The position numbers and the translations under genes are program-made. A DNA stretch of 64,000 bases from Allocoleopsis franciscana PCC 7113 (lineage in GTDB: Bacteria; Cyanobacteriota; Cyanobacteriia; Cyanobacteriales; Coleofasciculaceae), in NCBI RefSeq assembly GCF_000317515.1, contig NC_019738.1, positions 3,746,001 through 3,810,000 on the forward strand, written 5' to 3'. The notes under the pieces are model-generated. The model saw nothing but the letters and a program-made list of their open reading frames with translations, searched no databases and was not told where the DNA came from. Positions 14,242-57,677 of this stretch are shown here, in pieces. Each line of letters starts with the position of its first letter. Positions within the stretch are counted from its first letter, which is position 1.

Positions 14242-14441
14242 GGTAAAAGGAGTTGTGGTAGACCGAGAGGTTTTTATTCCAAGATGGCAGAACTGATGCC
14301 AAAGTTCCAATACCTCGGTAGCAAATCTATAATAATCAGGTTCTAAGACCCGTATCTGCCTTAGTTTCAATTGTTATCACTTGAGGCATAAAAGGCATCA
14401 ACAACCTTGATTTCTTATTTAAATCTTCATCTGGATTAACT

Positions 14442-39670: not shown

Positions 39671-42600
39671 GTGAATAAAACTAGGTGTTTTGGGTGGGAG
39701 AGAACGGGTATTGGCATCGCCATTGGGACACTCGCTCAACTATCTGTGGTGATTGCCATTCCTAGTAAACCTACGCTGGCACAAATTACACCGGATACAA
39801 CTCTAGGGGCTGAAGGTTCCCGCCTGACTCCGGGTACCAATGTGCAAGGGCTTCCGGCTGACGTCATCGAGGGCGGCGCACTCCGAGAAACCAACTTGTT
39901 TCACAGTTTTTCCGAATTTAATGTCAATAACGGGCAAAGAGTCTACTTTGCCAACCCCACAGGCATTGAGAATATCTTCAGTCGTGTGACTGGTAATAAT
40001 GTCTCGAATATTCTAGGAACTCTAGGCGTCAATGGTAACGCTAATTTATTCCTGCTTAATCCCAATGGCATTATCTTTGGCTCAAATGCAAGACTCGATA
40101 TTAAGGGTTCATTTTTAGCAACCACCGCTAATAGTTTCCAGTTTCCCGATGGAACCCAGTTTAGTGCCACCAACCCTGAAGCACCCCCCTTGTTGTCGAT
40201 TAATGTTCCCCTTGGAGTGCAGTATGGTTCACAACCCGGAACGATTGCGAGTACAGGGAATTTAACTGTTGGGCAAGACTTAACCCTAGAGGCAGGGAAT
40301 CTAGATTTACAAGGTCAGTTAAGAGCAGGCAGAGATTTAACCCTAGAAGCTCAAGATACAACGCAAGTGCGCGATCGCACCACCCATCCCTTCATCGCCT
40401 CTGCGGGTAACAAGTTAGTGGTGCAGGGTAACCAAAGGGTAGATATCTTTGCCTTGAATCACCCCAACAGTGGCTTCTATTCAGGTGGGGATATGGTGTT
40501 GCGGAGTGCCAACCCGGTGGGAGGTGATGCTCACTATTGGAGTGGGGGAAGTTTTCGGGTTGAACAATTGGATGGAAGTTTGGGTAATCTCTTCAGTCCT
40601 GATGACCCGATTATTTTATCGAGTGGAGATGTCAGTTTAGGAGATTATACGGGTGCATCGTTACATATTTTGGCGGGTGGGAGTGTCACCCTGAGCAATA
40701 TTGAGATTACAGGCACAGACACGGATGCCAATACCATTCACCCAGGGAATACAACCCCCTTTAACGGCACCCAAACCCTTGCCTCCCTTGCCGGCTTGAC
40801 GCTATCGGATGGTACACCCATCACGATTCAAGGTAATACAATTGCCACACTGGATGTGCGGGCTGGTGTGAACTGGGCGGCATTGGGTGGTTTTCCGGCA
40901 CCTGATCCTACAGTCATTGGGACGATACCCAGCCCTTCCACTGCACCTCTATCGAATGCCAACATTACGATCACGGGTACTATTATCAACAAGCAGCCCG
41001 ATGGTTTAGTGTTGTTAACCAACCAGTTCCAGCCGAATGGACTGGTTGGAAACATTCAGGTGAATCGGATATTCACCTCCTCCTTGTTTGACAGCACTTC
41101 CAACAGTGGACGAATTATTATCGACTCTCGTGGAAACTTTACCCCTGTAGGTCGGTTAGACACGAGTACCTTTGGCAGTGGACTAGGGGGTGACATGATG
41201 ATTCGGGCTGCGGGGGATGTGCGTCTGGACGGTGTGGAACTGAGCAGCAATACCTTTAGTAGTGGAAGTGCAGGAAATATTTCTATCGCGGCGCGATCGC
41301 TATTCTTAACGCGGGGAGGTCAAATTACCAGCCAGAGTGGGGATGATGCGATCGGCAATGGCGGCAATATCACCCTCAACCTATCCCAGACTCTATCTGT
41401 GGATAGCGATCGCCAAGGGAGTTGGCCTAGTGCCATTTTTACACAGGTCAATCGACGCTCCCAAGGTGATGGCGGAAATATCTGGATTAGTACTGGGGAT
41501 TTAATCTTAACCAATGGCGGGGAAATTTTAGCCAATAACTTTGGTAACCGACCTGGTGCTAAAGCCGGTGACATTACGATTCGTGCAACAGGTACAGTTA
41601 CTGTGGATGGTTCCCGTCAAAACGATTACTGGATATGGATTAATGATGCGGGCAGTAGAATTGGCAGCAACATCGGATTTGGGGTAGAGGATGGTAGTAG
41701 CGGCGGGAAACAAGCCGGCAGAATTGACATCCAAGCCGCAGGACTAAGCCTTCAAAATGGAGGTTACATCGCCAGCAAAGTTGAGTACAACGAAAATGGA
41801 CAGGGTGGGGATATTTTGCTCAATATCCTTGGAACTCCAGGTAACCCAGGCCAACTTGTAATCAGCGGCGTCAGCGAACGTGAGTACAATCCTAGTGGCA
41901 TTTTCACTGATGTTGAAGCTGGCACGGTCGGGAATAGCGGCATCATTACCATCAATACAGGCGACTTATCTATTACTAATGCTGCTGGCATTGAATCCGG
42001 TATGGCTGGCACAGGGAACAGGGGAGGGGATATTAACATTAATGCGAGTAGGACTGTGGCCTTTGACCGCAGTGGTGTTTTTAGCCGTTTGTCGGGAACC
42101 GCTACACAAGCCGGAAACATTAATATCACCACCCCTAGCTTATCGCTCACGAATTACGCTCAACTCTCTACCAGCACTAGTGGTCAAGGCAACGCGGGGG
42201 ATGTAACGATTAATACTGGCAATGGTCAGGTAACGTTGCAGCAGGGAAGTCAAATTTCCAATGCCATCGAACCGAATGCCACAGGTAGTGCAGGTCGAAT
42301 CAGCCTCACAGCCGGTCAACTGTCACTGATTGATGAGAGTGCCATTGTTAACTCCGTGGGTGAAAAGGCTCAGGGCAATGCCGGGAATACAGAAATCAGT
42401 GTCCCTGGTGGCAACATTACGATCACGGGCAGTGGTAGCCGGATTAGTAACTCGGTGGAACAGGGTGCGGTGGGGAATGGCGGTATCATCACCCTGAACA
42501 CGGGCAACTTGTTTATCATCAATGGTGCTCGTATTGATTCGAGTATGGCTGGCACGGGTGACAGAGGCGGCGATATTAACATTAATACGGAGCGGACTGT

Positions 42601-43753
42601 GGCGTTTGACGGCGAGGGTAGTGGTGCCTTTAGTACCTTGTCCGGAACAGCCCCACAAGCTGGCAACATCAATATCACCACCGGTAGCCTATCGGTGGCT
42701 AATCAAGCTTTAGTTTCTACCAGCACCAGTGGTCAAGGCAATGCTGGGAATGTAAGGATAAATGCCCTTAATACAGTAGCTTTGCACCAACAAGGTGGCA
42801 TCGAAAGCCGGGTGGAATCAACCGGAGTCGGGAATGGAGGCAATCTGGAAATCACAGTTCCCACGATGATTATCACCGATGGAGCTAGTCTCCAAGCCGA
42901 TAATCAGGCAACAAGTAGTAGCTCCCAGGCTGGGAAGATTCAAGTTCGAGTCAATAACCTAATGCTAGATCAGAACGCCGCTATTACCGCTGAAACGGCG
43001 AGTGGCAATGGGGGTGATATTGAGATTACAGCCAACGATCTGAAACTGTACCGCAACAGTGTTATTTCCACCTCGGCTGGTTCTCGGCAAAATCCTGGTA
43101 ATGGGGGCAGAATCAATATTGATGTGAGAAATGGGTTTGTCAGTGCCGTCCTTAATGAAAATAGCGATATTATTGCCAATGCCTTTGGCGGTGCAGGTGG
43201 TAAAATTACGCTCCAAGCACGGCGACTGATTGGACTGCAAGCGCGATCGGGCTTAACGCCAGAAGAACTGCAAGCGCTTCGCTACAATGGCACTAGTGAT
43301 ATTAGTGTCGGTTCCGATGCGGGTTCAGGAACGAACTTACAAAACATCCAAATTGAAACCCAGTCTTCTGACCCTGTTCAGGGACTTATAGAATTGGATG
43401 TAACCCCCGTAGACCCCGCAGGCTTAATTAACTACGGTTGTGCATCTCGAAACAGCTTGGTTGCTAAAGATCAGAGTACTTTCTTCGTCACTGGTAGGGG
43501 AGGATTGCCCCCAACACCCGATGACCCCCTCAGCAGTGGAGCCATGACACCCCCTTGGGTGACTCGTGACATTGGAACAGCGAGTAATGCAGCCCCTGTC
43601 GTAGCACGACCTTCGAGTACAGCAAAACCTCCGCTCGTAGAAGCTCAGGGTATGGTGATTAGTCCTGATGGAAAAGTCATTCTTACCGCCAATGCGGCAA
43701 CGGCTACCCTTCATCCGTCTGGGTTTTCTAGTCAAGGGTGTTCTGGAGAGTAG
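39671..43753 (+). CDS. filamentous-haemagglutinin-type TPS exoprotein (1)
   Basis: 1360 residues from GTG 39671. Signal segment (GIAIGTLAQLSVVIAIPSKPTLAQ) then the TPS domain recognised by a TpsB transporter: TLGAEGSRLTP, EGGALRETNLFHSFSEFNV, FANPTGIENIFSRVTGNN and NANLFLLNPNGIIFG with the NPNGI motif. The rest is a long beta-helix of irregular GN/GG repeats (GNGGNITL, GTGNRGGDININASRTVAF, STSGQGNAGNVRIN). The C-terminus has a Cys-containing part (INYGCASRNSL) and ends near GFSSQGCSGE, as is usual for cyanobacterial members. Secreted to the outer surface or medium. No TpsB is in the window. First gene of a probable three-gene operon. Confidence 0.9.
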   Translation: MNKTRCFGWERTGIGIAIGTLAQLSVVIAIPSKPTLAQITPDTTLGAEGSRLTPGTNVQGLPADVIEGGALRETNLFHSFSEFNVNNGQRVYFANPTGIENIFSRVTGNNVSNILGTLGVNGNANLFLLNPNGIIFGSNARLDIKGSFLATTANSFQFPDGTQFSATNPEAPPLLSINVPLGVQYGSQPGTIASTGNLTVGQDLTLEAGNLDLQGQLRAGRDLTLEAQDTTQVRDRTTHPFIASAGNKLVVQGNQRVDIFALNHPNSGFYSGGDMVLRSANPVGGDAHYWSGGSFRVEQLDGSLGNLFSPDDPIILSSGDVSLGDYTGASLHILAGGSVTLSNIEITGTDTDANTIHPGNTTPFNGTQTLASLAGLTLSDGTPITIQGNTIATLDVRAGVNWAALGGFPAPDPTVIGTIPSPSTAPLSNANITITGTIINKQPDGLVLLTNQFQPNGLVGNIQVNRIFTSSLFDSTSNSGRIIIDSRGNFTPVGRLDTSTFGSGLGGDMMIRAAGDVRLDGVELSSNTFSSGSAGNISIAARSLFLTRGGQITSQSGDDAIGNGGNITLNLSQTLSVDSDRQGSWPSAIFTQVNRRSQGDGGNIWISTGDLILTNGGEILANNFGNRPGAKAGDITIRATGTVTVDGSRQNDYWIWINDAGSRIGSNIGFGVEDGSSGGKQAGRIDIQAAGLSLQNGGYIASKVEYNENGQGGDILLNILGTPGNPGQLVISGVSEREYNPSGIFTDVEAGTVGNSGIITINTGDLSITNAAGIESGMAGTGNRGGDININASRTVAFDRSGVFSRLSGTATQAGNINITTPSLSLTNYAQLSTSTSGQGNAGDVTINTGNGQVTLQQGSQISNAIEPNATGSAGRISLTAGQLSLIDESAIVNSVGEKAQGNAGNTEISVPGGNITITGSGSRISNSVEQGAVGNGGIITLNTGNLFIINGARIDSSMAGTGDRGGDININTERTVAFDGEGSGAFSTLSGTAPQAGNINITTGSLSVANQALVSTSTSGQGNAGNVRINALNTVALHQQGGIESRVESTGVGNGGNLEITVPTMIITDGASLQADNQATSSSSQAGKIQVRVNNLMLDQNAAITAETASGNGGDIEITANDLKLYRNSVISTSAGSRQNPGNGGRINIDVRNGFVSAVLNENSDIIANAFGGAGGKITLQARRLIGLQARSGLTPEELQALRYNGTSDISVGSDAGSGTNLQNIQIETQSSDPVQGLIELDVTPVDPAGLINYGCASRNSLVAKDQSTFFVTGRGGLPPTPDDPLSSGAMTPPWVTRDIGTASNAAPVVARPSSTAKPPLVEAQGMVISPDGKVILTANAATATLHPSGFSSQGCSGE

Positions 43754-43883
43754 TAAACCAGGACAAAATTCTTTGACGCTGCTCCGTCAAATCCAGATGG
43801 GTGTATGGATATATCAGATTTAGCGTACACTGAATCCCCCTTTGGGTGGATATATTGGAACTGTTTGGTTCAAGAGGTCTGCC

Positions 43884-46265
43884 GTGAGTAAAAGTAGCAA
43901 TTTTGGGCTGGAAAGGACAGGTCTTCTAGGAGCCATTTGGGCATTTATTCAACTATGTTTATTCGTTGCTCTTCCCAATATCCCTACACTGGCACAGATT
44001 ACACCTGATACAACTCTAGGGGCTGAAGGTTCCCGCCTGACTCCGGGTGCCAATGTGCAAGGGCTTCCGGCTGAGCTCATCGAGGGTGGCGCACTCCGAG
44101 AAACCAACTTGTTTCACAGTTTTTCCGAATTTAATGTCAACAACGGACAGCGAGTCTACTTTGCCAACCCCACAGGCATTGAGAATATCTTCAGTCGTGT
44201 GACTGGTAATAATGTCTCGAATATTCTAGGAACTCTAGGCGTCAATGGTAACGCTAATTTATTCCTGCTCAATCCCAATGGCATTATCTTTGGCTCAAAT
44301 GCCAGACTCGATATTAAGGGTTCATTTTTAGCAACCACCGCTAAGAGTTTCCAGTTTCCCGGTGGAACCCAGTTTAGCGCTACCAACCCTGAAGCACCGC
44401 CATTATTGTCGATTAATGTTCCCCTTGGGGTGCAGTATGGAGCGCAGCCAGGGACTATTACTGTCAACCAGGCCAATCTGAACGTTGGTTCACAACAAAG
44501 TTTAATTTTACTCGGTGGAGATGTAGAGCTAAATGGCGGAAGATTGAATGCTTCAGGAGGATTGATTGAACTGGGAGGATTAGCAGGTGAAGGCAGCGTC
44601 GGATTGGACGTTGAGGATGGCTTTTTGAGCTTGAGAGATTTTACAGGGACACATGGGAATGTATCCATCAGTGGAAGTACGATATCCGCCACAGCTACTG
44701 GGAATTCTGACACGGCTAGTGGTGATATCCAGATGACTGGGCGTAACGTTCAGATTAGTGATAGCACAATTGCGAGCATCGGCAATGACGAATCCTACGG
44801 CACGATAACGATTAAAGCCTCAGATTCGGTTTTCTTGAATAACGCTATCCTTGACACTCAAAATAAAAATGGTACTGGAGGCGATGTATTGATCAATGCT
44901 CCTAACCAGATTTCAATTGCCAACAGTAAAATTTCTAGCGAAGGATATTTCGGACGGATTTCCATCGGCAGTCTCGACCCCGATGAAGAAGATCCAATTA
45001 AGCCAGGGACAGTTGTAATCGACAACTCTAAATTGACATCTGAGACTGCTTCTACAGATGGAAATCTACCTGACCAGCAGGGCTTAGGCTTAGTCAGCAT
45101 TAGAGCGAGCGACAGTGTTGAGATTAAAAACGGAAGCCAGCTCAACGCTACTACCTCTGGAATAGGTGACGCTGGCAATATCGCCATTTCTGCTCCTAAT
45201 GGCACAGTTGTGATTAATAACAGGAGCAAGCTACTCAGTGAGGCAACAAAAGACGCACAAGGTGATGTTGGCTATATCAAAATCACAGCAAGAAACCTTT
45301 TAATCGATGAGGCTCAGGTAAGCATTAACGATCAGTCGCTCGATAACCCAACAAATGCCACCAATGTTGATATTAATGACCTTGATTCCTTTGATGATAT
45401 TGATTCCTTTGATGATATTGATTCCTTTGATGATATTGAAAAGTTACCTGGAAGGATATACATTAGTGCCGAGCAGATGACACTGGATAATCAGGCCAGA
45501 ATCGAGGCTAATTCTGCATCAGTGGACGGCGGCAACATTTACATTGAAGCCTCAGAGCGGCTGATGCTGCGTCGAGGCAGCCTGATATCAGCTGAAGCTG
45601 ACACGGCTCAACAAGGAGGCGGTGGCAAGGGCGGTAACGTCACAATTAATGCGAAGGACGGGTTTGTGGTGGCAGTTCCCTCGGAAAACAGTGACATCAT
45701 TGCCAATGCCTTTGATGGTGATGGTGGAAAAATTACTATCTTTGCCAATAAGATTTTTGGTCTGAAACGACAGAGAGGGCAGAGTACCAGTCAGCTAAGA
45801 AGCAATCGTAGCAGTGATATTAGTGCCAGTTCTAAATTTGGATTTGAAGGGGAAATAAAAATCAATACCCTAGCTCTTGACCCCGCTCAGGGACTCGTGG
45901 AACTGCCCGTAACCTTAGTAGACCCCACCGGCTTAATCGCCCAAGGCTGTCAATCTCGAAACAATGGGGTTGCCAAAGGGCAGAGTACATTTGTCGCCAC
46001 CGGACGAGGAGGATTGCCCCCCAGCCCTGATGACCTCCTCAGCACGGGAGCCACACCTCCCCCTTGGGTCACTCGTGATAGTGGAAGAGTCAGTAAAGCG
46101 GCGGGTGTCGCTACGTTACCTTCTCGTACACCCACCCCCCCACTTGTGGAAGCTCAGGGTATGGTGATTGGTTCTAAGGGGGAAATCATTCTCACTGCCG
46201 GGGTTACAACCACTACCCCTCATCCATCTGGGTTCTCTGCCTCAGGGTGTTCTGGAGAACGGTAA
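43884..46265 (+). CDS. filamentous-haemagglutinin-type TPS exoprotein (2)
   Basis: 793 residues from GTG 43884, chosen because it aligns with the GTG of the upstream paralogue; the frame extends 14 codons to ATG 43842. Same layout: signal segment, TPS domain (nearly identical to copy 1 at protein and DNA level), shorter and different beta-helix, then the shared tail (GQSTFVATGRGGLPPSPDD ending GFSASGCSGER). An 18-bp tandem repeat codes for DSFDDI three times. The middle part does not resemble copy 1, so the genes share ends but differ in the repeat body. It follows copy 1 by about 90 bases. Confidence 0.88.
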   Translation: MSKSSNFGLERTGLLGAIWAFIQLCLFVALPNIPTLAQITPDTTLGAEGSRLTPGANVQGLPAELIEGGALRETNLFHSFSEFNVNNGQRVYFANPTGIENIFSRVTGNNVSNILGTLGVNGNANLFLLNPNGIIFGSNARLDIKGSFLATTAKSFQFPGGTQFSATNPEAPPLLSINVPLGVQYGAQPGTITVNQANLNVGSQQSLILLGGDVELNGGRLNASGGLIELGGLAGEGSVGLDVEDGFLSLRDFTGTHGNVSISGSTISATATGNSDTASGDIQMTGRNVQISDSTIASIGNDESYGTITIKASDSVFLNNAILDTQNKNGTGGDVLINAPNQISIANSKISSEGYFGRISIGSLDPDEEDPIKPGTVVIDNSKLTSETASTDGNLPDQQGLGLVSIRASDSVEIKNGSQLNATTSGIGDAGNIAISAPNGTVVINNRSKLLSEATKDAQGDVGYIKITARNLLIDEAQVSINDQSLDNPTNATNVDINDLDSFDDIDSFDDIDSFDDIEKLPGRIYISAEQMTLDNQARIEANSASVDGGNIYIEASERLMLRRGSLISAEADTAQQGGGGKGGNVTINAKDGFVVAVPSENSDIIANAFDGDGGKITIFANKIFGLKRQRGQSTSQLRSNRSSDISASSKFGFEGEIKINTLALDPAQGLVELPVTLVDPTGLIAQGCQSRNNGVAKGQSTFVATGRGGLPPSPDDLLSTGATPPPWVTRDSGRVSKAAGVATLPSRTPTPPLVEAQGMVIGSKGEIILTAGVTTTTPHPSGFSASGCSGER
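45384..45437 (+). repeat. three tandem copies of an 18-bp unit
   Basis: GATTCCTTTGATGATATT repeats exactly three times in frame, giving DSFDDI three times in an acidic loop of the second exoprotein. Confidence 0.95.
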
Positions 46266-46360
46266 AGCATTTTATCGTTTCTATGGGCAAGAGTAGGAGA
46301 CATGATGAACCTCCTCGCCTTCATGTTCATTAATTGAATTCAACAAATTTACGGATCAAG

Positions 46361-49213
46361 ATGGCAAGTAAACGATTTGTACTTTTGCATCGCTTACAAA
46401 AGCTGGGAATAGTGGGCTTCGGTAATTGGGGCTTAAGCAAGGCTCAGGCAAAATCTAGGCTTCCCAAATTCAAATACCGCTATGGATTTTTGGCTGCTCT
46501 AACGGCCTTGTGTTGCGTCGTGGTTGTCCCCATGGTGGGCAGAACTGCAACACCCACAGTGGTCGCCAATCCCTCTATCTCAGTTGTGAAGACTCAATCC
46601 TTGCCGCTGCCCTCAACTCTCCTGGCATCGGTCGGTGACTCTACGGCTCAACCCCTGCCGAATCTGGCTAAAAATCCCGAAAGCTTGGATGAACAAGCCA
46701 AAACTCTGTATTTAGCAGGGCGATTTTCAGAAGCCGTATCCGTTTTGCAGCAACTCCTGCAAGTGTACCAGACGAATGGCGACCTCCTGGGGCAAGCGGT
46801 GGTACAGAGTAATCTCGCTTTGAACTATCAGCAATTGGGACGCACTCAGGAGGCCACTCAGGCCATTGCCGCCGCACTTCAGGGAGTGGAAAAAACACAA
46901 AACTCCTCTGAGCGCTCAGCCGTTTGGGCACAGAGTCTGGATGTTCAAGCGAACCTGCAACTGGCAAAGGGAGAAGCAGAACAAGCTGTGGCAACTTGGG
47001 AACAAGCGGCTGCACTTTACAGCCAGTTAGGAGACACCAACAGAGCCACTCTGACGCGCATCAACCAGGCGCAGGCGTTGCAGGCATTAGGACTTTATCG
47101 GCGGTCGGTTTCGACCCTCCAGACGTTGAAACAGTCTTTGGACAAGCAACCTGACTCTCTCACCAAAGCATCGAACCTCCTCAGCTTGGGAGAAGCACTC
47201 CGGGTGATTGGAAACCTTGAGGAAGCGGATGCCAACTTACAAGAAAGTCTGAAGATTGCCCAAAACCTCAAATCCCCGGATGCCATTAGTGCGGCTTACC
47301 TCAGCTTAGGCAATCTCGCCCGGACTCAGGCAGACCAGAAAATAGGCCAAGCACAACCAAAAGAGGCTCAGAAACAGCGGCAAGCCGCTCTCGATTTCTA
47401 CCAGAAAGCCTCGGATACTGCTGCTATCTCAAAAACTCAAACCCAAGCCCAACTGAATCGCCTGCGCCTGTTGATCGAGATGAAGAAGTGGCAAGAGGCG
47501 CAAGCGCTTTATCCTCAGTTACAAGGTCAAATCGCGAACCTGCCTGTGGGTCGTCCTGCCATCTATGCCCAGGTTAACTTAGCCCGCAGCATGATGAAAT
47601 TACGCACTAGGGGCGAAAAGCCGTCTTCCACACCAGAAACTCGCGCACCCCAAGATATTGCCCAAATTCTGGCTGTGGCTTATCAGCAGGCGGAACAATT
47701 AAATGACGGGCGATCGCAAGCGGTTGTCTTGAGTGATTTGGGGCATTTGTATGAACTGCAAAATCAATGGACTGATGCCGAACAACTGACGCAACGGGCA
47801 TTGGTTTTATCCCAACAATCTGTGAATGCCTCCGATATTGACTATGAATTTTCCTGGCAGCTAGGTCGCATTTTCAAAGCACAAGGCAAATATCAACAAG
47901 CGATCGCAGCTTATGATGAAGCCTTTGAAAGGTCGCGATCGCTCCGAGGTGATTTGGTAGCCACCAATCCAGATGTGCAGTTTTCCTTCCGAGACAGTGT
48001 CGAACCCGTTTATCGCCAATTTGTAGACTTGCTGCTGACTCCTCCATCTCGTGAGGCTGAACCCCCTCAGCAAAATCTGCAAAAAGCTCGTGAGGTATTA
48101 GAAGCGCTACAAGTCGCACAACTGCAAAACTTCTTACAACAAGCCTGTGAGGAGAAACGATTAGAAATTGACCGGATTATTGATCAAAAAGACTCACAAA
48201 CAGCCGTGATTTACCCAATCATCCTAGACAACCGATTGGAAGTCATGGTTAAGTTACCCAAGGAAGACCAGCTCTATCGCTCCTCCACTGAAATTTCTAG
48301 GGATAGCGTTGCCAAGACATTAAAACAATTCAAAACCACTCTGGAAACCGAGAGTCCGTTTGATCAGCCGGTGAAAAAGGTGGGTAAAACCGTTTATGAC
48401 TGGCTGATTGCACCGTTTAGCGATCGCCTCGAAGCGGGTGGTATCAAGACCCTGATCTTCGTCTTGGACGGTTCTCTGCGAACGATTCCCATGGCGGCTC
48501 TTTACGATGGAGAACGCTATCTGGTTGAGAAGTATGCCGTTTCCTTGGCTTTAGGTCTAGAGGTGCGCGACCCCGAACCCCTCCTGCGTCAAAACATGAA
48601 GGTACTCGCAGCCGGTCTGACTGATCCGCCGAAACAGTTTGAGAACACCTATAGCAAACTGCAAAATGTCAAACACGAACTCGACGCGATCAAGGACACC
48701 AACGTCCCGGTTAAGTTTATCCTCGACCAGGCATTTACCGAGGGAAATTTCCAGCAAGCCATGAATTCAAACAATTACCAGGTTGTTCACCTAGCCACTC
48801 ATGGTCAGTTTGGGGCGACACGGGAGAGGACTTATTTACTGGTTGCAGATGGCGCGATTTATGTAGACCAATTGAGTGAATTATTCCGTACACGCGGACA
48901 AAGCCGAGAAGACGCGGTGGAATTATTGGTTCTGAGTGCTTGTAAGACAGCCAGCGGAAACGATCGCGCCGTTCTAGGGATTGCCGGAACAGCCGTACAG
49001 GCTGGTGCACGCAGCGTAATCGCGGGTTTGTGGAGTCTAGCGGATGACTCCAGTGTGCTATTTGCCCAAGAACTGTATAAATATTTAGGGGAACCTGGAA
49101 TCAGCCGAGCCGAAGCCTTACGTCGAACCCAGGTGGCGTTTCTCAAAGACGAGAGTAAATATCAGCACCCCCGCTTTTGGGCACCTTATGTTTTGGTGGG
49201 CAGTTGGTTGTAA
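46361..49213 (+). CDS. TPR-CHAT caspase-like protease
   Basis: 950 residues from ATG 46361 (the frame extends nine codons to a TTG). A signal or anchor helix (YGFLAALTALCCVVVVPMVG) near residue 45, then about ten TPR-like units (LYLAGRFSEAVSVLQQLLQVYQ, QSNLALNYQQLGRTQEATQA, LSLGEALRVIGNLEEADANL), and a CHAT domain from about residue 640. Catalytic His814 (VVHLATHGQFG) and Cys861 (LLVLSACKTASGND) are both present, so the peptidase should be active. CHAT is the caspase/separase-like family. It follows exoprotein 2 by under 100 bases, suggesting co-transcription. A role in processing or quality control of the exoproteins is a guess. Confidence 0.92.
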   Translation: MASKRFVLLHRLQKLGIVGFGNWGLSKAQAKSRLPKFKYRYGFLAALTALCCVVVVPMVGRTATPTVVANPSISVVKTQSLPLPSTLLASVGDSTAQPLPNLAKNPESLDEQAKTLYLAGRFSEAVSVLQQLLQVYQTNGDLLGQAVVQSNLALNYQQLGRTQEATQAIAAALQGVEKTQNSSERSAVWAQSLDVQANLQLAKGEAEQAVATWEQAAALYSQLGDTNRATLTRINQAQALQALGLYRRSVSTLQTLKQSLDKQPDSLTKASNLLSLGEALRVIGNLEEADANLQESLKIAQNLKSPDAISAAYLSLGNLARTQADQKIGQAQPKEAQKQRQAALDFYQKASDTAAISKTQTQAQLNRLRLLIEMKKWQEAQALYPQLQGQIANLPVGRPAIYAQVNLARSMMKLRTRGEKPSSTPETRAPQDIAQILAVAYQQAEQLNDGRSQAVVLSDLGHLYELQNQWTDAEQLTQRALVLSQQSVNASDIDYEFSWQLGRIFKAQGKYQQAIAAYDEAFERSRSLRGDLVATNPDVQFSFRDSVEPVYRQFVDLLLTPPSREAEPPQQNLQKAREVLEALQVAQLQNFLQQACEEKRLEIDRIIDQKDSQTAVIYPIILDNRLEVMVKLPKEDQLYRSSTEISRDSVAKTLKQFKTTLETESPFDQPVKKVGKTVYDWLIAPFSDRLEAGGIKTLIFVLDGSLRTIPMAALYDGERYLVEKYAVSLALGLEVRDPEPLLRQNMKVLAAGLTDPPKQFENTYSKLQNVKHELDAIKDTNVPVKFILDQAFTEGNFQQAMNSNNYQVVHLATHGQFGATRERTYLLVADGAIYVDQLSELFRTRGQSREDAVELLVLSACKTASGNDRAVLGIAGTAVQAGARSVIAGLWSLADDSSVLFAQELYKYLGEPGISRAEALRRTQVAFLKDESKYQHPRFWAPYVLVGSWL

Positions 49214-49244
49214 TTCCTGTTTGAGTGGAATACTTCAAATTATT

Positions 49245-49268
49245 AGGGGCACGACATATCGTGCCCCT
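49245..49268. terminator. strong hairpin after the CHAT gene
   Basis: AGGGGCACGA pairs perfectly with TCGTGCCCCT around the loop CATA, 32 bases after the stop codon. It sits between convergent genes and could end both transcripts. Confidence 0.75.
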
Positions 49269-49368
49269 ATCCTGTCGTTATAGCAGTTGCCAAGGCGACT
49301 CTTGACTCTCGCCCAATGCTGAAACCTTGACCGATTAATCTTTTCCCTTCTGCCTTCTGCTATCTCCC

Positions 49369-50148
49369 TTAATTGCTCCCGCTCTCAGGACGCAGTTCAC
49401 TCACCGGAGTTGTGGCAAATTCTTGCAGATCAAACAACTTCACCAATTCGCTCCATGCGCTTGGATTGTTAGTCCGATTGCTGGCAAGCCCAGTCACGTA
49501 CTCAAACCATAAATTATTCTCTTTATAAGCCAGGTACTGCTGTTGCGGGGGCGTAGCTTTGAGCCGACTATCCAGTTGGGCACTAGCTGGAATCCTAGTC
49601 AGCCAACCCGCGACGCTTGGGTTCGCCGACGGTTGATCCGGATCGCAGATAATGGAAAGCCTCCAATAGTAGTCTTTGCCCACTTCCAACGCTTTTTCTG
49701 TGGAGGGGAGAGTAAACTTGACAATACCTGCTTCATCTGGTAAAGCAAGCTGAAGCGGTTCTGTCAGCACTGGGTTACCTGTATCATCCTGCAACTCAAA
49801 CTGGACAGATGTAACCTTGACATCGGAGGTCTCACTTTGAGGCGCATTCTGACCAAAGGGTACATAAAACCAGAAGGTGGGATAGCCTTGGGTTGTATTT
49901 CCTGGGTCTTTTTCCGGATTCAGCGCCTTGAGATTCTTTGTGCCTGCGGGACACTCCCCACGCACAGCGCCGCTGCTGGATGTGTTACCTGCATTGAGAG
50001 GACGTTTGGCAAGTAGTTGCACCGAGCGCTGGTTTGACTGAGCTTGAGCTTTTTGACTCAATAAGGGCAAGAGTGGCATTGTTGGCACTAACGCAGCCAT
50101 CGTTCCGAAAACAAGAGCTTTTTGGATGAGTGAACGTGTTAATACCAT
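49369..50148 (-). CDS. DUF928 family exported protein (third copy)
   Basis: 259 residues. Signal peptide (ALVFGTMAALVPTMPLLPLLSQKAQA), then the DUF928 landmarks CPAGTKNLKALNPE, YPTFWFYVPFG, SVQFELQDDTGNPV, GKDYYWRLSIICDPDQ and the helical tail YLAYKENNLWFEYVTGLASNR. Paralogue of the pair at 12613-14241. It lies convergent to CHAT and downstream of a TIR-CHASE2 gene of the same strand, a neighbourhood in which DUF928 is often found. Function unknown; probably periplasmic. Confidence 0.9.
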   Translation of the reverse strand: MVLTRSLIQKALVFGTMAALVPTMPLLPLLSQKAQAQSNQRSVQLLAKRPLNAGNTSSSGAVRGECPAGTKNLKALNPEKDPGNTTQGYPTFWFYVPFGQNAPQSETSDVKVTSVQFELQDDTGNPVLTEPLQLALPDEAGIVKFTLPSTEKALEVGKDYYWRLSIICDPDQPSANPSVAGWLTRIPASAQLDSRLKATPPQQQYLAYKENNLWFEYVTGLASNRTNNPSAWSELVKLFDLQEFATTPVSELRPESGSN

Positions 50149-50184
50149 GAGTTGTGAACCTCTTAATAGTGTTTCCAGAGTAGA

Positions 50185-50301
50185 ACTTACGCAACTGTCA
50201 CAAAAAATCGGGTTTTTTGTTTGTAGTCAGGGCTTTAGCCCAACCCAATGAGAACTGTAGTCCTCCCAATAAACTGAAAATAATATGCCCATTGCGTAAG
50301 C
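50185..50301. mobile_element. small MITE-like element
   Basis: ACTTACGCAA at 50185-50194 and TTGCGTAAGC at 50292-50301 are inverted copies with one mismatch, enclosing about 95 gene-free bases. Elements ending in ACTTACGCA are common in cyanobacterial spacers. A target duplication is not clear. Confidence 0.5.
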
Positions 50302-50375
50302 TCTCAAGATCAAATGCTACAAGTTGAGTTTGTCGGTTGTTCCTGAAACCTGAACCACGGAGTGTGGATAGGTAA

Positions 50376-53300
50376 CTACTTTCGCAAGTAGTAATTCAGA
50401 CAACCCACTCCGGCACCTGTGCCGATGAGGGCAATGAGTGCAGGAGCTAATGGTAGCCATCCACCGGGGAAGGCGAGGACGAAATAGCAGATGCCGTAAA
50501 GAGTGACAACCGAAACCACACCTGCGATCGCTAAAAATCTCGGTTGCCGAAACCACCAAACCACAAAACCACCGACCACCGACCAGCCAAAAATCCAAAG
50601 CGTTTCCGACCCCATGGGCATCCACCAAATCAAGGGACGCCCATTCAGTGTGGCACTCAAGAGTTGGCTAATCATCTGCGCGTGCAATACCACTCCCGGA
50701 ACTTCACCATAAGGTGTATTCCAGTAGTCGGCTTGGCGTTCGGCTTTATCCACCAGGCCAATCAACACAATGCGATCGCGGATCAAGTCTGCGGGAACGC
50801 GATTTTCCAACACATCCTTGAGAGGAACGATTGGCACGAACTTTTCTGGATCACCCTGATGAATTCGATAGTTGAGCATCGCTTGATACCCACCCAACTG
50901 ATCACCTCGATCTCGGTAGCCGCTGCCATTTCCTGACGTTGGTGCCCACAAGGGCGGAATCACCGTCTTGCCAAACTGCATGTGGCGCACAAAGTCTTCT
51001 TCCTTCGGATCAAAGGGAGAGGAATAAGGAATACCCTTCCCTTCCAGGTATTTTTGCGCCAGTACCAGGCTGAAGGCATTCATCGTGTTGCAATAATCTG
51101 GATCTGCCCCTGCCATCAGGTAATGGCGACGTAAAAACTTACCCCCATCATCTTGCAGATTAGCAAAGCCGACCCGCTCTATCGGTACATTTGTCGGGGC
51201 TTTGTTTCCCTTCTTCATTTGCCCCCGATCATTCGTGCCACTGCCTTTGCAAACGGCTACCAAGTTGGTGGTGTCTTTAAAGGTTTGAGTGAGTTCTGGT
51301 AATGAACTCAAGTCCCGGATAAAATCTAAGCCAATCAAGCGGGGTTGATGACGGTTAAGGGCTTTGAGGGTATCCGATAGCGCCAAGTCCGGCACAGTCC
51401 CTCGCCCCAAGCGATAGCGATCACTGCGATCGATCATCTCAGCACTGTCTACATCAACCCCGACAATCACCAGCCGATCATCTTTCGGTTCATTCGGACG
51501 CAACCGGAGCAAATGGTCGTAGGCTGCCAGTTCCACCGGTTGCATCAGCCCAAAAAAGCGTCCAGCAAACACTAATGCCGTGACAGCCAAGCCAGTCAAC
51601 ATCACCGTGCGCCGCTTCACCCGACGATAGGGGAGTTCTCGACTCGCTGCCAAATACTCTAACTGAAGGTCGGTGGGAGCCGGTTCTCGATTGGTCGTTT
51701 GTGTCAACCACTGCTGGGAGGCAACCAAATCTTTCCCCCGCACCAAGAAGCCATCATCACGTCCATGCTGTTCCCACTCCTTGGCTTTGAGCAACAAACG
51801 GGTGTGAGTTCTGACATAATCTGGGTCTGTATCCAGGGTTCTCGTGAGTTCCCCAAAGTTGGTAAGGAAGTCTCCTCCATGCTTGCGGAAATCCACCCAC
51901 TGCACTTTTGCTAAACCTGGGTGCAGCGTCGCCGGATCGACCTCCTGATATAAAACGGTGACAATGCGCTTATTCAAGCTCATCGCATACTCCACCTGTG
52001 CCGCAGAGTCGGGCGAATTGACGGAGTTGGGGGAAATAATAAATAAAAAGTTGTTGGCGTATTCAATTCCCCGCTGAATCTCTTGCTGAAAGTCAACCCC
52101 AGAGGCGATACTTTCTTGCTCAAACCAGGTTGTCTTGCCTTGAATTTGTAGAGTCTCGTTCAGCTTGCGGGCAAAATCAGAATCGGTGCGGGAGTAGGCA
52201 ATAAATACATCGAGGGAAGCATCTGGAGGTTGTTTGAGGCTTTCCGCGATGAATTCTTCTTGTAGGGGTGTGGATGAATTCTGAGTTCTCTGTTTTGCCA
52301 CCTTCAACCACGCCTCAGCTTGGCGAAGATTGTAACCCCGCAATAAAATGCTGGGATTGCGCTTTTGCCGTTCCCACTTCAGCGCCTTCGCCAATACGAT
52401 TTTATGCTGCTCATGGTAAGCGGCGTCTTCACGCAGTACCTTAATTAACTTGGCAATAGCATCGTGATATTGCGCCTCTTGCTCCGGATCTGTGATCGTG
52501 ATGAACTGTATAGCACCTAGTTCAGGCGGAACTTGCTCAAGCTCAACCTCTTTAATCAGTACAGGAATAATTCGCTTTTTGTGCGTCCTGGCGTGAGCCA
52601 GTTCCATTTGACAGTATTGCGATGCCAGAGAGGCTGGAGACATGAGATAAACCACATTATCGGCTTCCTCCAGACCCCGATAAATGGCCTCTACAAAATC
52701 TGTCCCAGAGTTAATGTCTGTTAGGTTCGTCCAAACGGTGAAACACTCGCGCCTCAAACTGTTCGCCACTTTTTCCATGAACGCCCTCTCCTTTTCCGAG
52801 TAGGAGAGAAAGACATGAGTCATTAGGTTATTGGCGTTCTTGGTACTTTCACCAATAAAGGCACAGTGCAAGTCGGTTGGTTCGCAAGGGGGTTGCTCAT
52901 CCTTAAACCGGATTTTTAGCCAGTTTTCGGCTTGTATCCGTTCTTCTCCGGTTAAGAGGTAACTTGACTGTTTCTGATTGCGTTCCCACTCCAGCGCTTT
53001 AGCTAAAAAGTAGGTGTGCTGTTTTACATAGTCTCGATGACGAGTAAATATTTCTAGCAGTCCAGCAAAGGATTTCTCAAAATCGTCAATTCCTTCGCGG
53101 AAGTAAACCCAGTTGATTTTGCCAATCACAGGGTGCATATTGGGGAAACTGGAGTGTAAACCCTTGGATTTGTAAGTTTCCCACTCACTCAGATCACGGC
53201 CTGGGTTGCGTTGCTGCCAAATTTCTTCTGTAATTTGCTCGACGTGCAACAGGGGAATAATTCGTTTATTGCGTCGGAGGGCTAGCTCAATTTCTTTGCC

Positions 53301-53555
53301 GCAGTAGGGCGAGTTGACAGAGTGGGGGGCGATGAGAAATAGAAAGTTATCGGCTTTCTCGATGCCGTCATCAATTTGGTTTTGGTAATCTACCCCTAAA
53401 GGAATATCGTTTTGATCAAACCAAACCTTTCGTCCTTCTTTCAGGAGCCGGTCATAGAGCTTAGTTGCAAAAGCTTTGCTATCTGCTCGTCCGTATGAAA
53501 TAAATGCATCTTGAAAGCTATTGATCTTTCCTAAAACTTCTAAGCTGCTATTCAC
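50376..53555 (-). CDS. TIR-TIR-TIR-CHASE2 membrane protein
   Basis: 1059 residues from GTG 53555 (the frame extends seven codons to a TTG). Three TIR domains near residues 14-165, 245-375 and 448-575. TIR1 and TIR2 keep the putative NADase Glu (Glu88 in SPYCGKE, Glu318 in SQYCQME), whereas TIR3 has Gln520 (SPDSAAQ). Each TIR is followed by a short helical module of the form AKALEWER..LLRG..QAEXWL. Then a membrane helix (TVMLTGLAVTALVFAGRFFG), CHASE2 (670-940; AAYDHLLRLRP, IVGVDVDSAE, GLDFIRDL) and two to three C-terminal helices. CHASE2 lies outside the membrane, so this may join an external signal to TIR output inside. It is the minus-strand neighbour of DUF928. Confidence 0.88.
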   Translation of the reverse strand: MNSSLEVLGKINSFQDAFISYGRADSKAFATKLYDRLLKEGRKVWFDQNDIPLGVDYQNQIDDGIEKADNFLFLIAPHSVNSPYCGKEIELALRRNKRIIPLLHVEQITEEIWQQRNPGRDLSEWETYKSKGLHSSFPNMHPVIGKINWVYFREGIDDFEKSFAGLLEIFTRHRDYVKQHTYFLAKALEWERNQKQSSYLLTGEERIQAENWLKIRFKDEQPPCEPTDLHCAFIGESTKNANNLMTHVFLSYSEKERAFMEKVANSLRRECFTVWTNLTDINSGTDFVEAIYRGLEEADNVVYLMSPASLASQYCQMELAHARTHKKRIIPVLIKEVELEQVPPELGAIQFITITDPEQEAQYHDAIAKLIKVLREDAAYHEQHKIVLAKALKWERQKRNPSILLRGYNLRQAEAWLKVAKQRTQNSSTPLQEEFIAESLKQPPDASLDVFIAYSRTDSDFARKLNETLQIQGKTTWFEQESIASGVDFQQEIQRGIEYANNFLFIISPNSVNSPDSAAQVEYAMSLNKRIVTVLYQEVDPATLHPGLAKVQWVDFRKHGGDFLTNFGELTRTLDTDPDYVRTHTRLLLKAKEWEQHGRDDGFLVRGKDLVASQQWLTQTTNREPAPTDLQLEYLAASRELPYRRVKRRTVMLTGLAVTALVFAGRFFGLMQPVELAAYDHLLRLRPNEPKDDRLVIVGVDVDSAEMIDRSDRYRLGRGTVPDLALSDTLKALNRHQPRLIGLDFIRDLSSLPELTQTFKDTTNLVAVCKGSGTNDRGQMKKGNKAPTNVPIERVGFANLQDDGGKFLRRHYLMAGADPDYCNTMNAFSLVLAQKYLEGKGIPYSSPFDPKEEDFVRHMQFGKTVIPPLWAPTSGNGSGYRDRGDQLGGYQAMLNYRIHQGDPEKFVPIVPLKDVLENRVPADLIRDRIVLIGLVDKAERQADYWNTPYGEVPGVVLHAQMISQLLSATLNGRPLIWWMPMGSETLWIFGWSVVGGFVVWWFRQPRFLAIAGVVSVVTLYGICYFVLAFPGGWLPLAPALIALIGTGAGVGCLNYYLRK

Positions 53556-53744
53556 ACAAAACCTCAAGTATGTCAAGTTTTTTTAAACGAACGTCAGGAG
53601 CAGATGAGCGCTACTCGATTGCTTCCTTATTTCTACTTTATCTATTCCTTTAGGTAGTTGTCCAAATTTATTATCTTTACTAGCACTAAAAAATATTGGT
53701 AAGTTGGATTTTCGTCACATTACCCAGATTGTCTATCTCTAGAG

Positions 53745-55487
53745 CTATAAAAGAGCGTTATTCGATATAATCATGGCGATCGCTAAACGCACCGCTTGCC
53801 CCACCACCGAAAAACGTGCTGCCTCCGAAGCCGCTTCTTGCCACCTTAACAATTGTTTCTGGAAGATTTCATCGGTTTCAGCTCGCTTCATAATTACTTT
53901 ACCAATGACTTCTTTTTGAATTTCTTCCGTCGAAATGTTCTGTTGTTGCAAAAACTCGATCAGCCGCTCTACACTATCCACACACTGTTCTGGTGCTTGG
54001 GACATGATAATCCGTTGAATCTGAGTGACCACCTCTTGATATAACTGCCGTTTGCGACGGTTAGGTGATAAGGACAGGGGAGGTGGTGCTGGCAATGGGG
54101 GCAGCCGTTCGATCTGTAAATTCTGAGCCTCCTTGATTTCAAGTAAGTCCAGGAGAATTTGGCGTCGAGTCACAAAACGCTCCAACATATCTGGATAGAG
54201 TTGCACAATCCGCTGACTAATCAGCTTGGTATTGACCGATCGATTAGCGGACAAGCGCAGTAAGTATTTCCCAGAATTGGCTTCATAGGATTTGAGGGTG
54301 AGTTGAAGATTCGGAGACTCGAATTGGACTTGAGTGAGAGTAAACACGAGCGCCTCCCAGTTCGGAGCCTCAAGAAACGACACGGTTACCGTTAAGCGGT
54401 TTTCGGTGTTTTTGCGCTCCAATCCTGCGGGTGGCAAATCGCCCGTTACTGGATAGCGATCGCTTGGGCTTTTGCTAGAGTAGTCGAATCCCGTAAACAC
54501 ATATCGACACTCAACATAAGATAAATCGACCTCCTCCAAATGCCACTGATGAATGCAGCAACCCGTCAGTTCTGCCCGGTCGAGTTTAGTCCGAATTAAA
54601 TAACTTTCCAACAGATAGGCACCACTCAAATTGGCCTCACTTAACAGAGTATCCTTCAGATAAGCCCCACTTAAGTCAGCTTTTCGCAAATCAGCTCCCC
54701 GTAAATTCGCCTCACTCAGGTCGGTGCGTAATAAATAAACCTCTTGCAGAACTGCACGCAACAAATCTGCTTTTCGTAAACTGGCTCTGAGCAAATAAGC
54801 CCCCGTGAGATTCGCTCGACTCAAGTCTGCACCCTCACAATTGGCTTCACTCATATCCGCACCCGTGAGAATCGCCCGATGCAAGTCTGCCTGTCTGAGA
54901 TTTGCACCTCGCAGGTAAACGTTATTGAGATTCGCCTCTGTCAAATTAACGCCAACTAAAGTCGCTTCTTGTAAATTCGCCTGTTCTAAATTAGCTTCCC
55001 GTAGATTCGCACCGGTGAAATTGGTAGCGATGAGGTTGGTGCGGCAGAGATTGGCTTCCATCAACTGTGCGCCCATGAGCAGAGCATGGTTGAGATTAGC
55101 GTGTTCGAGATTAATCTGATCAAGCTGAGTGTTCTGCAAATCTGCCCCACTCAAATTAGAAGCGCTTAAATCCGCCCAATTTAAATCAGCCTCTCGTAGA
55201 TTTGCCAATCGCAGATCCACTTTACTCAGCTTGGCTCGACTCAATATTGATTGAGTAAAATTGGCATTGTCCAAGATAGCGCTATGTAGATTGGCCTGAT
55301 GCAAGTTGGCTCCAGTGAAATTGGCGTGGCTGAAACAACACCAACTCAGATTTGCACCACTGAGGTTAGCACCCGTCAAATTAATTTTGCGGAGGTTCGC
55401 CCCGGTCAGGTTTGCCCCACTCAGGTCAATATGGGCAAAGTCACGTTCTCCTTGTCGGTATCGGTCGAGAAAGTTTTGTACTTGCAT
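53745..55487 (-). CDS. pentapeptide-repeat protein
   Basis: 580 residues. Residues 18-325 are about 55 A(D/N)LXX pentapeptides (GANLTGANLRKINLTGANLS, EADLNWADLSASNLSG), expected to form a right-handed quadrilateral beta-helix. The final 240 residues are a separate globular domain (SFLEAPNWEALVFTLTQVQF, LIEFLQQQNISTEEIQKEVI) that I cannot assign. Cytoplasmic, since no signal peptide. Pentapeptide proteins can mimic DNA and bind gyrase, but most cyanobacterial ones have no known role. It lies 190 bases from TIR-CHASE2 on the same strand. Confidence 0.88.
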   Translation of the reverse strand: MQVQNFLDRYRQGERDFAHIDLSGANLTGANLRKINLTGANLSGANLSWCCFSHANFTGANLHQANLHSAILDNANFTQSILSRAKLSKVDLRLANLREADLNWADLSASNLSGADLQNTQLDQINLEHANLNHALLMGAQLMEANLCRTNLIATNFTGANLREANLEQANLQEATLVGVNLTEANLNNVYLRGANLRQADLHRAILTGADMSEANCEGADLSRANLTGAYLLRASLRKADLLRAVLQEVYLLRTDLSEANLRGADLRKADLSGAYLKDTLLSEANLSGAYLLESYLIRTKLDRAELTGCCIHQWHLEEVDLSYVECRYVFTGFDYSSKSPSDRYPVTGDLPPAGLERKNTENRLTVTVSFLEAPNWEALVFTLTQVQFESPNLQLTLKSYEANSGKYLLRLSANRSVNTKLISQRIVQLYPDMLERFVTRRQILLDLLEIKEAQNLQIERLPPLPAPPPLSLSPNRRKRQLYQEVVTQIQRIIMSQAPEQCVDSVERLIEFLQQQNISTEEIQKEVIGKVIMKRAETDEIFQKQLLRWQEAASEAARFSVVGQAVRLAIAMIISNNALL

Positions 55488-55859: not shown

Positions 55860-57677
55860 TCATACAAACCTCATTGCCAGCATATCGTTTTCCCAGAACC
55901 ATTCTGAGTTAACTGGCGGCTTAGGCTCGACACTATTGCAGTCGGATTTTGTGCCATAACTGCCGTCAAGGGCAGTTTTTATATCGTGGCAATGTCGATG
56001 AAGGAGTTGCCAATTTTTGTATTCATCCTTTCCACCAAGAGATTTCGGGATGATGTGGTCACGCTCTATTACATCTCCATCTTTGAGGTACAGTCCGCAG
56101 TGGGCGCATTTTCCTTTTTGCTGTTTCAGCAGCGATGCTGTTCGCTTTGGCATCTCAGGATTTTTTCCCATTCGGATACTCCAGTAAATTAGGTTTCCAT
56201 CGTATGGTGACGCTTCGCCTTTAACTTTCACATAGTCCCTAATATTGGTGTCTCTGTGTTTTAGTAACCGAAGGTGTTTTTCACCTTGCCTGGTTGCGAA
56301 GACCCAATTATCGCCGCCAATGGTTTTCCAGTATTTGTCTGCAAGCCATTGTTCACCTTTGTTTCTGTGTCGGCTTTTTGCCCATGCTTTTAATGCAATG
56401 TAGATATTAGCATCGAGCTTTTTAAATGCTTTGCTGCTATTGACCGTAGAGTAATAGTTTGTCCATCCTCTAATGATAGGATTCAATTTGTCTATCAGGC
56501 TCTTTTGTGAGCTTCCTTTGTGGTCGTTTATTACTCTCTTGATTTGGTCGTAATGTACCTTACATTTTTCTTTGCTTGGGGTGATGATAGTTTTGAAGCC
56601 TAGAGGTTTCCCTTTTGTGTCTTTTCCTGTCGTGTATTTTCCGACAGGGAATTGTCGGACATAGTATCCCAAAAAGTTAAATCCTGGTTTTTCTTGTCCA
56701 TGCTCATTTAAGGTATGAGCTATACGGGTTTTGCTCGGTTTCAATTCTAAGCCCATGCCTTTTAACCATTCAGAGATTACCTCTCTGCATCCTTGGACAA
56801 CGGTTATGTCATTGTGGAGAATCACAAAGTCATCGGCGTAGCGTATTATTGAGACTGAATCTCGCTTATCCCTTTTTGGAAGTTGATATTTTCCATCTGA
56901 CCTTTTTAGGTCACAGGTTTCCACGTACTCTTTAATTCGCCATTCCATCCCGTGAAGGGCAATATTTGCCAGTAACGGAGAGATTACCCCGCCCTGTGGC
57001 GTACCCTCGGATGTGTCGAAGTACTGCATATTATCCATCACCCCCGCTTTTAACCACGCTCGGATTTGTCGGCGAATGGTGGGGGACGTATTTAGTTTAT
57101 TGAGCAGTGCTTCATGGTCAATGCGGTCGAAGCATTGTGCAATGTCTGCATCCAGCACGTATTTTGCTTTTTGCTTGATTACAGTCTGTATCGCTGATAT
57201 CGCATCTTGGCACGACCTTCCTGGTCTGAACCCATAGCTATTGGGTTCAAATTGCGCTTCCCATTCTGGTTCTAGTGCCAGTTTGACTAGCGCCTGCAAG
57301 GCGCGGTCTTTCATGGTAGGTATTCCCAATGGTCGCTTCTCTTCCTTTCCCGGTTTTGGAATCCATACTCTCCGGGTGGGGCTGACCTTGGTTCCCAATT
57401 TCAATTGACCTATAAGGTTTTGACGTTGCTTTGGGGTCAGGCTCCTCTGCCCATCCACACCTGCCGTCTTTTTGCCTTGGTTATCTTGGGTAACTCTACG
57501 CACCGCGAGACATCTTGCTGACCAAGATTTCATCAACAACTTTTGGAGTCGGCGAACTGTCCTGACATCTCCACGACTAGAGGCTTGGTAAATCCGTTTT
57601 TGTAGCTTGAATGCCATCCGCTCATGCTTTCGCCAAGGGATTTTGTTCCATTCATACATCGGTTGTTCCGTGTTCAT
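55860..57677 (-). CDS. ltrA: group II intron reverse transcriptase-maturase with HNH nuclease
   Basis: 605 residues, full-length. RT palm and fingers: KRPLGIPTMKDRALQALVKLALEP, NSYGFRPGRSCQDAI, YVLDADIAQCFDRIDH, GTPQGGVISPLLANI and the catalytic YADD at 280-283. Then the maturase X (GIIM) domain (LNPIIRGWTNYYSTVNSSKAF) and a C-terminal HNH endonuclease with zinc cysteines (CAHCGLYLKDGDVIERDHIIPKSLGG, HRHCHD). It aids splicing and retrohoming of its intron. The 63-base gap to the RT fragment upstream is too short to hold its own domains I-III, so its intron is 5' truncated. Confidence 0.95.
   Translation of the reverse strand: MNTEQPMYEWNKIPWRKHERMAFKLQKRIYQASSRGDVRTVRRLQKLLMKSWSARCLAVRRVTQDNQGKKTAGVDGQRSLTPKQRQNLIGQLKLGTKVSPTRRVWIPKPGKEEKRPLGIPTMKDRALQALVKLALEPEWEAQFEPNSYGFRPGRSCQDAISAIQTVIKQKAKYVLDADIAQCFDRIDHEALLNKLNTSPTIRRQIRAWLKAGVMDNMQYFDTSEGTPQGGVISPLLANIALHGMEWRIKEYVETCDLKRSDGKYQLPKRDKRDSVSIIRYADDFVILHNDITVVQGCREVISEWLKGMGLELKPSKTRIAHTLNEHGQEKPGFNFLGYYVRQFPVGKYTTGKDTKGKPLGFKTIITPSKEKCKVHYDQIKRVINDHKGSSQKSLIDKLNPIIRGWTNYYSTVNSSKAFKKLDANIYIALKAWAKSRHRNKGEQWLADKYWKTIGGDNWVFATRQGEKHLRLLKHRDTNIRDYVKVKGEASPYDGNLIYWSIRMGKNPEMPKRTASLLKQQKGKCAHCGLYLKDGDVIERDHIIPKSLGGKDEYKNWQLLHRHCHDIKTALDGSYGTKSDCNSVEPKPPVNSEWFWENDMLAMRFV

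Follow-up and report, generated by a model that had tools for sequence, protein, structure and literature searches.

A TIR-CHASE2 receptor gene paired with DUF928 beside a TPS and TPR-CHAT gene group in Allocoleopsis franciscana PCC 7113: a candidate envelope sensor

The chromosome of the cyanobacterium Allocoleopsis franciscana PCC 7113 (7.97 Mb) contains, in a stretch of 64,000 nucleotides analysed here (positions 3,746,001 to 3,810,000 of NC_019738.1; hereafter the window, whose own numbering is used below), a locus in which genes for two two-partner secretion (TPS) exoproteins and a CHAT-domain protein with TPR repeats (TPR-CHAT) converge with genes for a DUF928 protein and for a receptor with three TIR domains and a CHASE2 domain (TIR3-CHASE2). 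We favour, at somewhat better than even confidence, the reading that DUF928 and CHASE2 form a sensor of the envelope or of the exoproteins with a TIR output, placed beside an exported TPS surface-protein system. The gene set is not a product of chance and its linkage is firm; because its members recur together and were lost together in a sister genome, they probably constitute one surface-watching unit. The adjacency of CHASE2 and DUF928 is order-wide, though it had previously been noted once, in Nostoc punctiforme, where the two were described beside WD40 genes, in that species alone out of seven (PMC5587647). In the open-access literature that paper was the only one found on DUF928; no description was found of the CHASE2-DUF928 partnership across cyanobacteria, of its link to TPS and TPR-CHAT or of the TIR swap, and nothing was found on the CHAT domain together with hemagglutinin or with CHASE2.

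The FHA-FHA-TPR-CHAT run (39671-49213, plus strand) consists of TPS1 (39671..43753, 1360 aa, TPS domain at ~39779-40558), TPS2 (43842..46265, 807 aa, TPS domain by Pfam) and TPR-CHAT (46334..49213, 959 aa), with intergenic gaps of 88 and 68 bases. The exoproteins have signal peptide-like N-termini and PF05860 scores of 183 and 193 bits, and are tandem paralogues, 81% identical in the N-terminal ~215 residues and 44% in the C-terminal part. On the minus strand (49369-53576) lie the genes for DUF928 (49369..50148, 259 aa) and TIR3-CHASE2 (50376..53576, 1066 aa; three TIR and CHASE2 by Pfam). Between the convergent groups, a near-perfect inverted repeat (49244..49269) is likely a bidirectional terminator, and the TPR-CHAT/DUF928 intergenic region folds better than 200 of 200 shuffles (z -5); no promoter- or terminator-like sites were called in the two short plus-strand gaps, in a scan that overall found no more sites than shuffles and is therefore uninformative. 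A first-pass annotation, made from the letters alone, had placed six genes here, the five above and a pentapeptide-repeat gene (53745..55487, Pfam pentapeptide repeats), with plus-strand gaps under 100 bases and with no gene for the TPS transporter TpsB in the window. Open reading frames (ORFs) and Pfam bear out its coordinates and families, and the TpsB genes found by ShlB match, four in number, are all located outside the window, three adjoining CHAT genes.

Recurrence and joint loss of the gene set

The four families CHAT, TPS, DUF928 and CHASE2 were mapped over the whole genome (~50, 34, 15 and 16 matches, respectively) and their neighbourhood was tested with 1000 circular shifts at a distance of 10 kb. 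Of the 16 CHASE2 matches, 11 lie near DUF928 (mean over the shifts 0.5, maximum 4); CHAT is near TPS in 22 of 52 (mean 4.1, maximum 11) and CHASE2 near TPS in 9 of 16 (mean 1.3). Other CHASE2 proteins in clusters of this kind have a class III cyclase, the lone ones a kinase or GGDEF domain; at L006, L007 and L008 a TPS or TPS-CHAT gene directly precedes CHASE2-DUF928, and at L004 and L013 TPS-TpsB-CHAT groups stand without CHASE2. The same genome holds nine single ORFs that join a TPS domain with CHAT at the C-terminus (e.g., L008:8503-13566 and L002:4994-12355), one of which also sits behind a glycosyltransferase; two of the nine were looked at individually. Their architecture implies that CHAT domains can be exported as part of an exoprotein.

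Among 148 genomes of the order, the nearest relatives of the window CHASE2 part, after TIR3-CHASE2 itself, are CHAT-CHASE2 proteins of ~790 aa. In 31 of 32 CHAT-CHASE2 loci from nine families, the gene that immediately follows in the same orientation encodes DUF928, usually overlapping (by 50-90 bases) or at most 50 bases away, and a TPS or TPR-CHAT gene occurs within 10 kb in 25 of the 32, with TpsB in 10; at relative loci such as L060 and L132, TpsB is adjacent to TPS. A frequent layout, found at L056, L060, L062, L063, L070-L072 and L086, is (sigma-like), DUF1822, CHAT-CHASE2 and DUF928 in this order, convergent with TPS, TpsB and TPR-CHAT, DUF1822 and the sigma-like genes having been profiled in a sample of loci. 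The ~215-aa ORFs upstream of CHAT-CHASE2 match sigma factors weakly, and the only clear match is at a TIR3-CHASE2 locus, L121. The window repeats this convergent order, except that TIR3 replaces CHAT, there are two TPS genes, and TpsB and an adjacent sigma or DUF1822 gene are absent. Over the whole comparison, 133 of 148 genomes have DUF928, and each of these 133 also has CHASE2; none of the 11 genomes that lack CHASE2 has DUF928. The neighbourhood is thus conserved beyond this genome, and of the candidate system that the first-pass annotation had drawn, the linked surface-protein, CHAT and TIR-CHASE2 genes hold together by recurrence, best-hit linkage and joint loss, while the pentapeptide gene drops out.

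Nine distinct full-length TIR3-CHASE2 proteins were found, eight at loci with usable flanks. DUF928 is next downstream in five of these (the window, L051, L053, L120 and L121), and TPS and/or TPR-CHAT genes lie within 10 kb in six. In L121, a Leptolyngbya metagenome-assembled genome (MAG), TIR3-CHASE2, DUF928, TPS and TPR-CHAT follow one another in a single direction, separated by 42, 30 and 26 bases, and an extracytoplasmic function (ECF) sigma factor gene lies two genes upstream of TIR3-CHASE2; in G089, three TPS genes with TpsB and TPR-CHAT diverge from TIR3-CHASE2, DUF928 and CHAT. Although each genome offers dozens of CHAT matches, the genome-wide best match of the window TPR-CHAT falls at the TIR3-CHASE2 locus in G101 (same family) and ~15 kb from that locus in G089. 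In the same-genus sister genome G133 (L130, G133:C6:200000-219999), where flanking genes are 86-97% identical to those of the window, TPS1, TPS2, most of TPR-CHAT (its 5' part), DUF928 and TIR3-CHASE2 have been deleted together, leaving short remnants that correspond to window positions 40061-40160, 46191-46333 and 47909-49219. The pentapeptide gene is kept there, inverted and at 92% identity, and is not beside the other TIR3-CHASE2 genes; its membership in the set was therefore rejected.

TIR array, exported protease and DUF928 partner

In the window receptor, TIR1 (~53127-53519), TIR2 (~52476-52820) and TIR3 (~51810-52220) precede a first membrane helix (~51549-51605), the CHASE2 domain (~50568-51581) and C-terminal membrane helices. 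As the first-pass annotation had stated, two of the three TIR domains keep the catalytic glutamate of TIR NADases: TIR1 and TIR2 have it and are predicted to be of the NADase type, and TIR3 has glutamine. At this third position, glutamate occurs in 6 of the 9 TIR3-CHASE2 proteins. In a tree of 53 CHASE2 domains, nine of them from TIR3 rows, all receptors with an N-terminal effector (CHAT, kinase or TIR3) group together (support 100/99), TIR3-CHASE2 forms a single clade (100/96) nested inside them, and N-terminal kinases arose at least twice among the CHAT rows. A tree with four TIR rows had suggested two independent origins of TIR3-CHASE2, a reading dropped once nine rows gave one clade. Judged from these relationships, TIR3-CHASE2 is an effector-swapped CHAT-CHASE2 receptor in which TIRs replaced the cytosolic caspase and DUF928 remained the near-constant partner. 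Larger proteins that lack CHASE2 contain a TIR3 with 62-66% identity to this TIR3 module; one of them proved to be TIR3-WD40, the likely donor type. Elsewhere the CHASE2 chassis carries CHAT, a Ser/Thr kinase or a class III cyclase. As separate observations, a triple-TIR module 43-47% identical occurs in proteins without CHASE2 in Bacteroidota MAGs (L110-L116, L126 and L127) and, also outside cyanobacteria, a Thioploca sp. MAG (L117) has a TIR3 protein gene with CHAT and TPS genes after it in the same orientation.

The closest described architecture is the EACC2-caspase-CHASE2 protein, which is encoded with an ECF sigma factor and DUF1822 and proposed to be a sensor activated by autopeptidase action (Kaur et al., 2021, PMC8195603). 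The likeness lies in a CHASE2 chassis with a cytosolic N-terminal effector, and the CHAT-CHASE2 relatives found here, matched to those systems by CHAT-CHASE2, sigma and DUF1822 rather than by EACC2 itself, have upstream DUF1822 and sigma-like genes; the window protein differs in that three TIRs replace the EACC2 and caspase N-terminus while CHASE2 and its flanking membrane helices remain at the C-terminus, with no sigma or DUF1822 gene adjacent. In the available portion of that text, the terms DUF928 and hemagglutinin were not found. The same topology has been noted for a Trichodesmium metacaspase-CHASE2 protein (PMC3501461).

The CHAT domain of TPR-CHAT (~48377-49204) has the His-Cys pair reported by the first-pass annotation, His823/Cys870, which is invariant in an alignment of 26 sequences; the dyad is also intact in 32 of 32 CHAT-CHASE2 proteins. 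By hydropathy and inspection, a strong N-terminal hydrophobic segment is present in 27 of 34 TPR-CHAT proteins (at ~46484-46540 in the window) and in none of 36 CHAT-CHASE2 and TIR3-CHASE2 proteins. The prediction is thus a cytosolic position for TIR3, as for CHAT in CHAT-CHASE2, and an outer one for TPS, TPR-CHAT, DUF928 and the CHASE2 domain. Given its export signal, TPR-CHAT would lie across the membrane from the TIRs, with CHASE2 spanning between them, which does not fit CHAT and TIR as partners in one compartment. A structural model of TPR-CHAT (m289545e800f3, pLDDT 81) aligns to the Csx29/Craspase TPR-CHAT chains (Z ~30) and to separase, and the protein is accordingly a predicted protease with TPR repeats, the CHAT dyad and a Csx29/separase-like fold. 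Fold and dyad are those of Csx29/Craspase and separase; the differences from Csx29/Craspase are its predicted export, its tie to secreted proteins and the absence of a gRAMP or CRISPR gene among the neighbours scanned. The model also aligns strongly to the transmembrane anti-sigma factor DdvA (8rot and 8rw5; Z 22.7 over 562 residues), which may point to a fold of the TPR-CHAT kind that is extracytoplasmic.

DUF928 begins with a signal peptide (AQA/Q), and its model (mb5ce431ecc26, pLDDT 83) has an immunoglobulin (Ig)-like sandwich (residues 72-187) followed by four helices (190-238), which predicts an exported protein with an Ig-like and a TPR-like part. The top Foldseek match of the model is MtxA, which is also the best by VIA (Z 9.1 over 143 residues at 3.7 A, the next match having Z 7.0). 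MtxA is exported to the periplasm, has Ig-like and TPR domains and is encoded ahead of a CHASE2-adenylate cyclase gene in Magnetospirillum (PMC4439547). As a structural search is blind to gene neighbourhoods, this match independently supports DUF928 as a CHASE2 partner. The two loci share a gene for an exported (for DUF928, predicted) protein with Ig-like and TPR-like parts beside a CHASE2 receptor gene; that of MtxA differs in its cyclase output, in having no sequence similarity detected to DUF928 and, as far as the accessible text goes, in having no TPS or CHAT reported. Against PDB sequences, the DUF928 profile gave chance-level matches only. A precedent for relay from the outer membrane to CHASE2 is found in Sinorhizobium meliloti, whose CHASE2 adenylate cyclases CyaD1, CyaD2 and CyaK are described as activated by a protein signal perceived via the outer-membrane protein NsrA (PMC13001267); that system has a cyclase output, and no DUF928, TPS, CHAT or TIR was reported in the text consulted.

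Proposed mechanism and rival explanations

In the mechanism that we propose, the two TPS exoproteins would be made together with the TPR-CHAT protease, which, itself exported, probably processes or polices them outside the cytoplasm. We infer that exported DUF928 physically partners the CHASE2 receptor and would report on how the envelope or exoproteins fare, be it loss, misexport, cleavage or contact; CHASE2 would relay this signal across the inner membrane to the three cytosolic TIRs, and these may consume NAD+ or make a messenger of the cyclic ADP-ribose type, leading to growth arrest or to a reversible signal. The TIR array would thus be a swapped output on a common CHASE2 chassis. Compared with canonical two-partner secretion (type Vb), to which the TPS-domain exoproteins and, in the relatives, the adjacent TpsB belong, the window has no TpsB and has an exported TPR-CHAT and a CHASE2/DUF928 pair attached. 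A wider formulation is tentative and, in our estimate, falls somewhat short of even odds: DUF928/MtxA-type Ig-TPR proteins and CHASE2 would be a general envelope-surveillance receptor pair whose periplasmic half is constant and whose cytosolic output (cyclase, kinase, caspase or TIR array) is freely swapped, in cyanobacteria monitoring TPS exoproteins and the exported CHAT protease, and here switching on a TIR NADase from outside the cell. CHASE2 receptors are widespread, yet few of their ligands have been identified. Here nearly every CHAT-CHASE2 has the same exported partner, which resembles MtxA, itself the product of a gene next to a CHASE2 cyclase gene in another phylum; the question of the ligand can therefore be put to direct test. 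If true, the TIR version would let a receptor outside the cytoplasm control a TIR enzyme, in the manner of animal Toll-like receptors, and would link bacterial cell-surface proteins to caspase- or TIR-type outputs.

Several points weigh against the envelope-sensor reading. Three TIR3-CHASE2 loci (L052/L094, L091 and L092) have no adjacent DUF928, and two of them have neither TPS nor CHAT nearby; no TpsB gene lies within the window. The presence/absence statistic for DUF928 and CHASE2 ignores phylogeny and genome size, and the joint loss in G133 is one event, in which a single deletion can take neighbours whatever their function. The topology was assigned without a trained predictor, the MtxA match (Z ~9) is modest and little above background, and no similarity of sequence between DUF928 and MtxA was detected, the DUF928 profile not listing 4z29 up to E 10.

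An unlikely though serious alternative holds that two independent units share a neighbourhood, namely a TPS/TPR-CHAT secretion operon and a DUF928-CHASE2 pair that controls other things, linked by shared regulation or niche. It accounts for the DUF928-CHASE2 pairs that have no TPS or CHAT nearby (7 of the 32 at CHAT-CHASE2 loci, and several at loci with a cyclase or kinase), for the TPS-TpsB-CHAT groups without CHASE2 (L004 and L013) and for the opposite strands of the window halves with the terminator-like repeat between; it sits poorly with L121, where all four genes occupy one strand with gaps under 45 bases, with the TPS or TPS-CHAT genes directly before CHASE2-DUF928 at L006, L007 and L008, with the joint loss in G133 and with the best-hit linkage of TPR-CHAT. 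A role of the locus in defence or cell death is possible. In its specific form, an anti-phage or anti-competitor system in which DUF928-CHASE2 would detect a phage adsorbing to the TPS surface layer, or contact made there, and NAD+ depletion by the TIRs would end the infection or be lethal to the cell, we regard it as improbable: the TIRs have intact glutamates and a domain-level likeness to those of Thoeris, CBASS and pAgo, SLATT- and SLOG-type genes lie near two TIR3-CHASE2 loci (L121 and L092), and caspase-CHASE2 relatives were proposed as apoptosis or immunity systems (PMC8195603), but NCBIfam defence models score far under their cut-offs, PADLOC matches are partial and to single TIR domains, and the cyclases and kinases at homologous loci suggest general signalling. 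For Thoeris itself, no ThsB-type TIR exceeded the model cut-off (ThcB4 103 bits vs 220, PADLOC ThsB matches partial), ThsA having had no separate search.

The intact CHAT dyad and TIR glutamates would also suit a reading close to that of the first-pass annotation, in which the CHAT protease and the TIR sensor form a stress-death module and act jointly within the cell; this is very improbable, since the TPR-CHAT export signal and the relatives fused to, or in operons with, secreted TPS proteins predict TPR-CHAT outside the cytoplasm, opposite the TIRs. Chance juxtaposition in a large genome with so many matches to these families is refuted for the set by the clustering of CHASE2 with DUF928 far above the shifts and by its conservation in other families, and could apply only to single neighbours such as the pentapeptide gene.

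Neighbouring features of the window

Upstream of TIR3-CHASE2, beyond the pentapeptide gene, which lies outside the conserved set, there is no adjacent ECF sigma or DUF1822 gene; a group II intron reverse transcriptase with an HNH domain is found directly beside a second, truncated reverse transcriptase fragment (55860-57677 and 57741-58340, minus strand). Farther away, a tandem pair of DUF928 genes (12613-14370, minus strand) has no CHASE2 gene nearby and adjoins a transglutaminase-like gene (14442-16124). Finally, the TPS exoproteins of many such loci share a conserved C-terminal segment, TGRGGLPP...EAQG(W)...LTA...C, near residue 1273 in TPS1, which is possibly a sorting, anchoring or CHAT target region.

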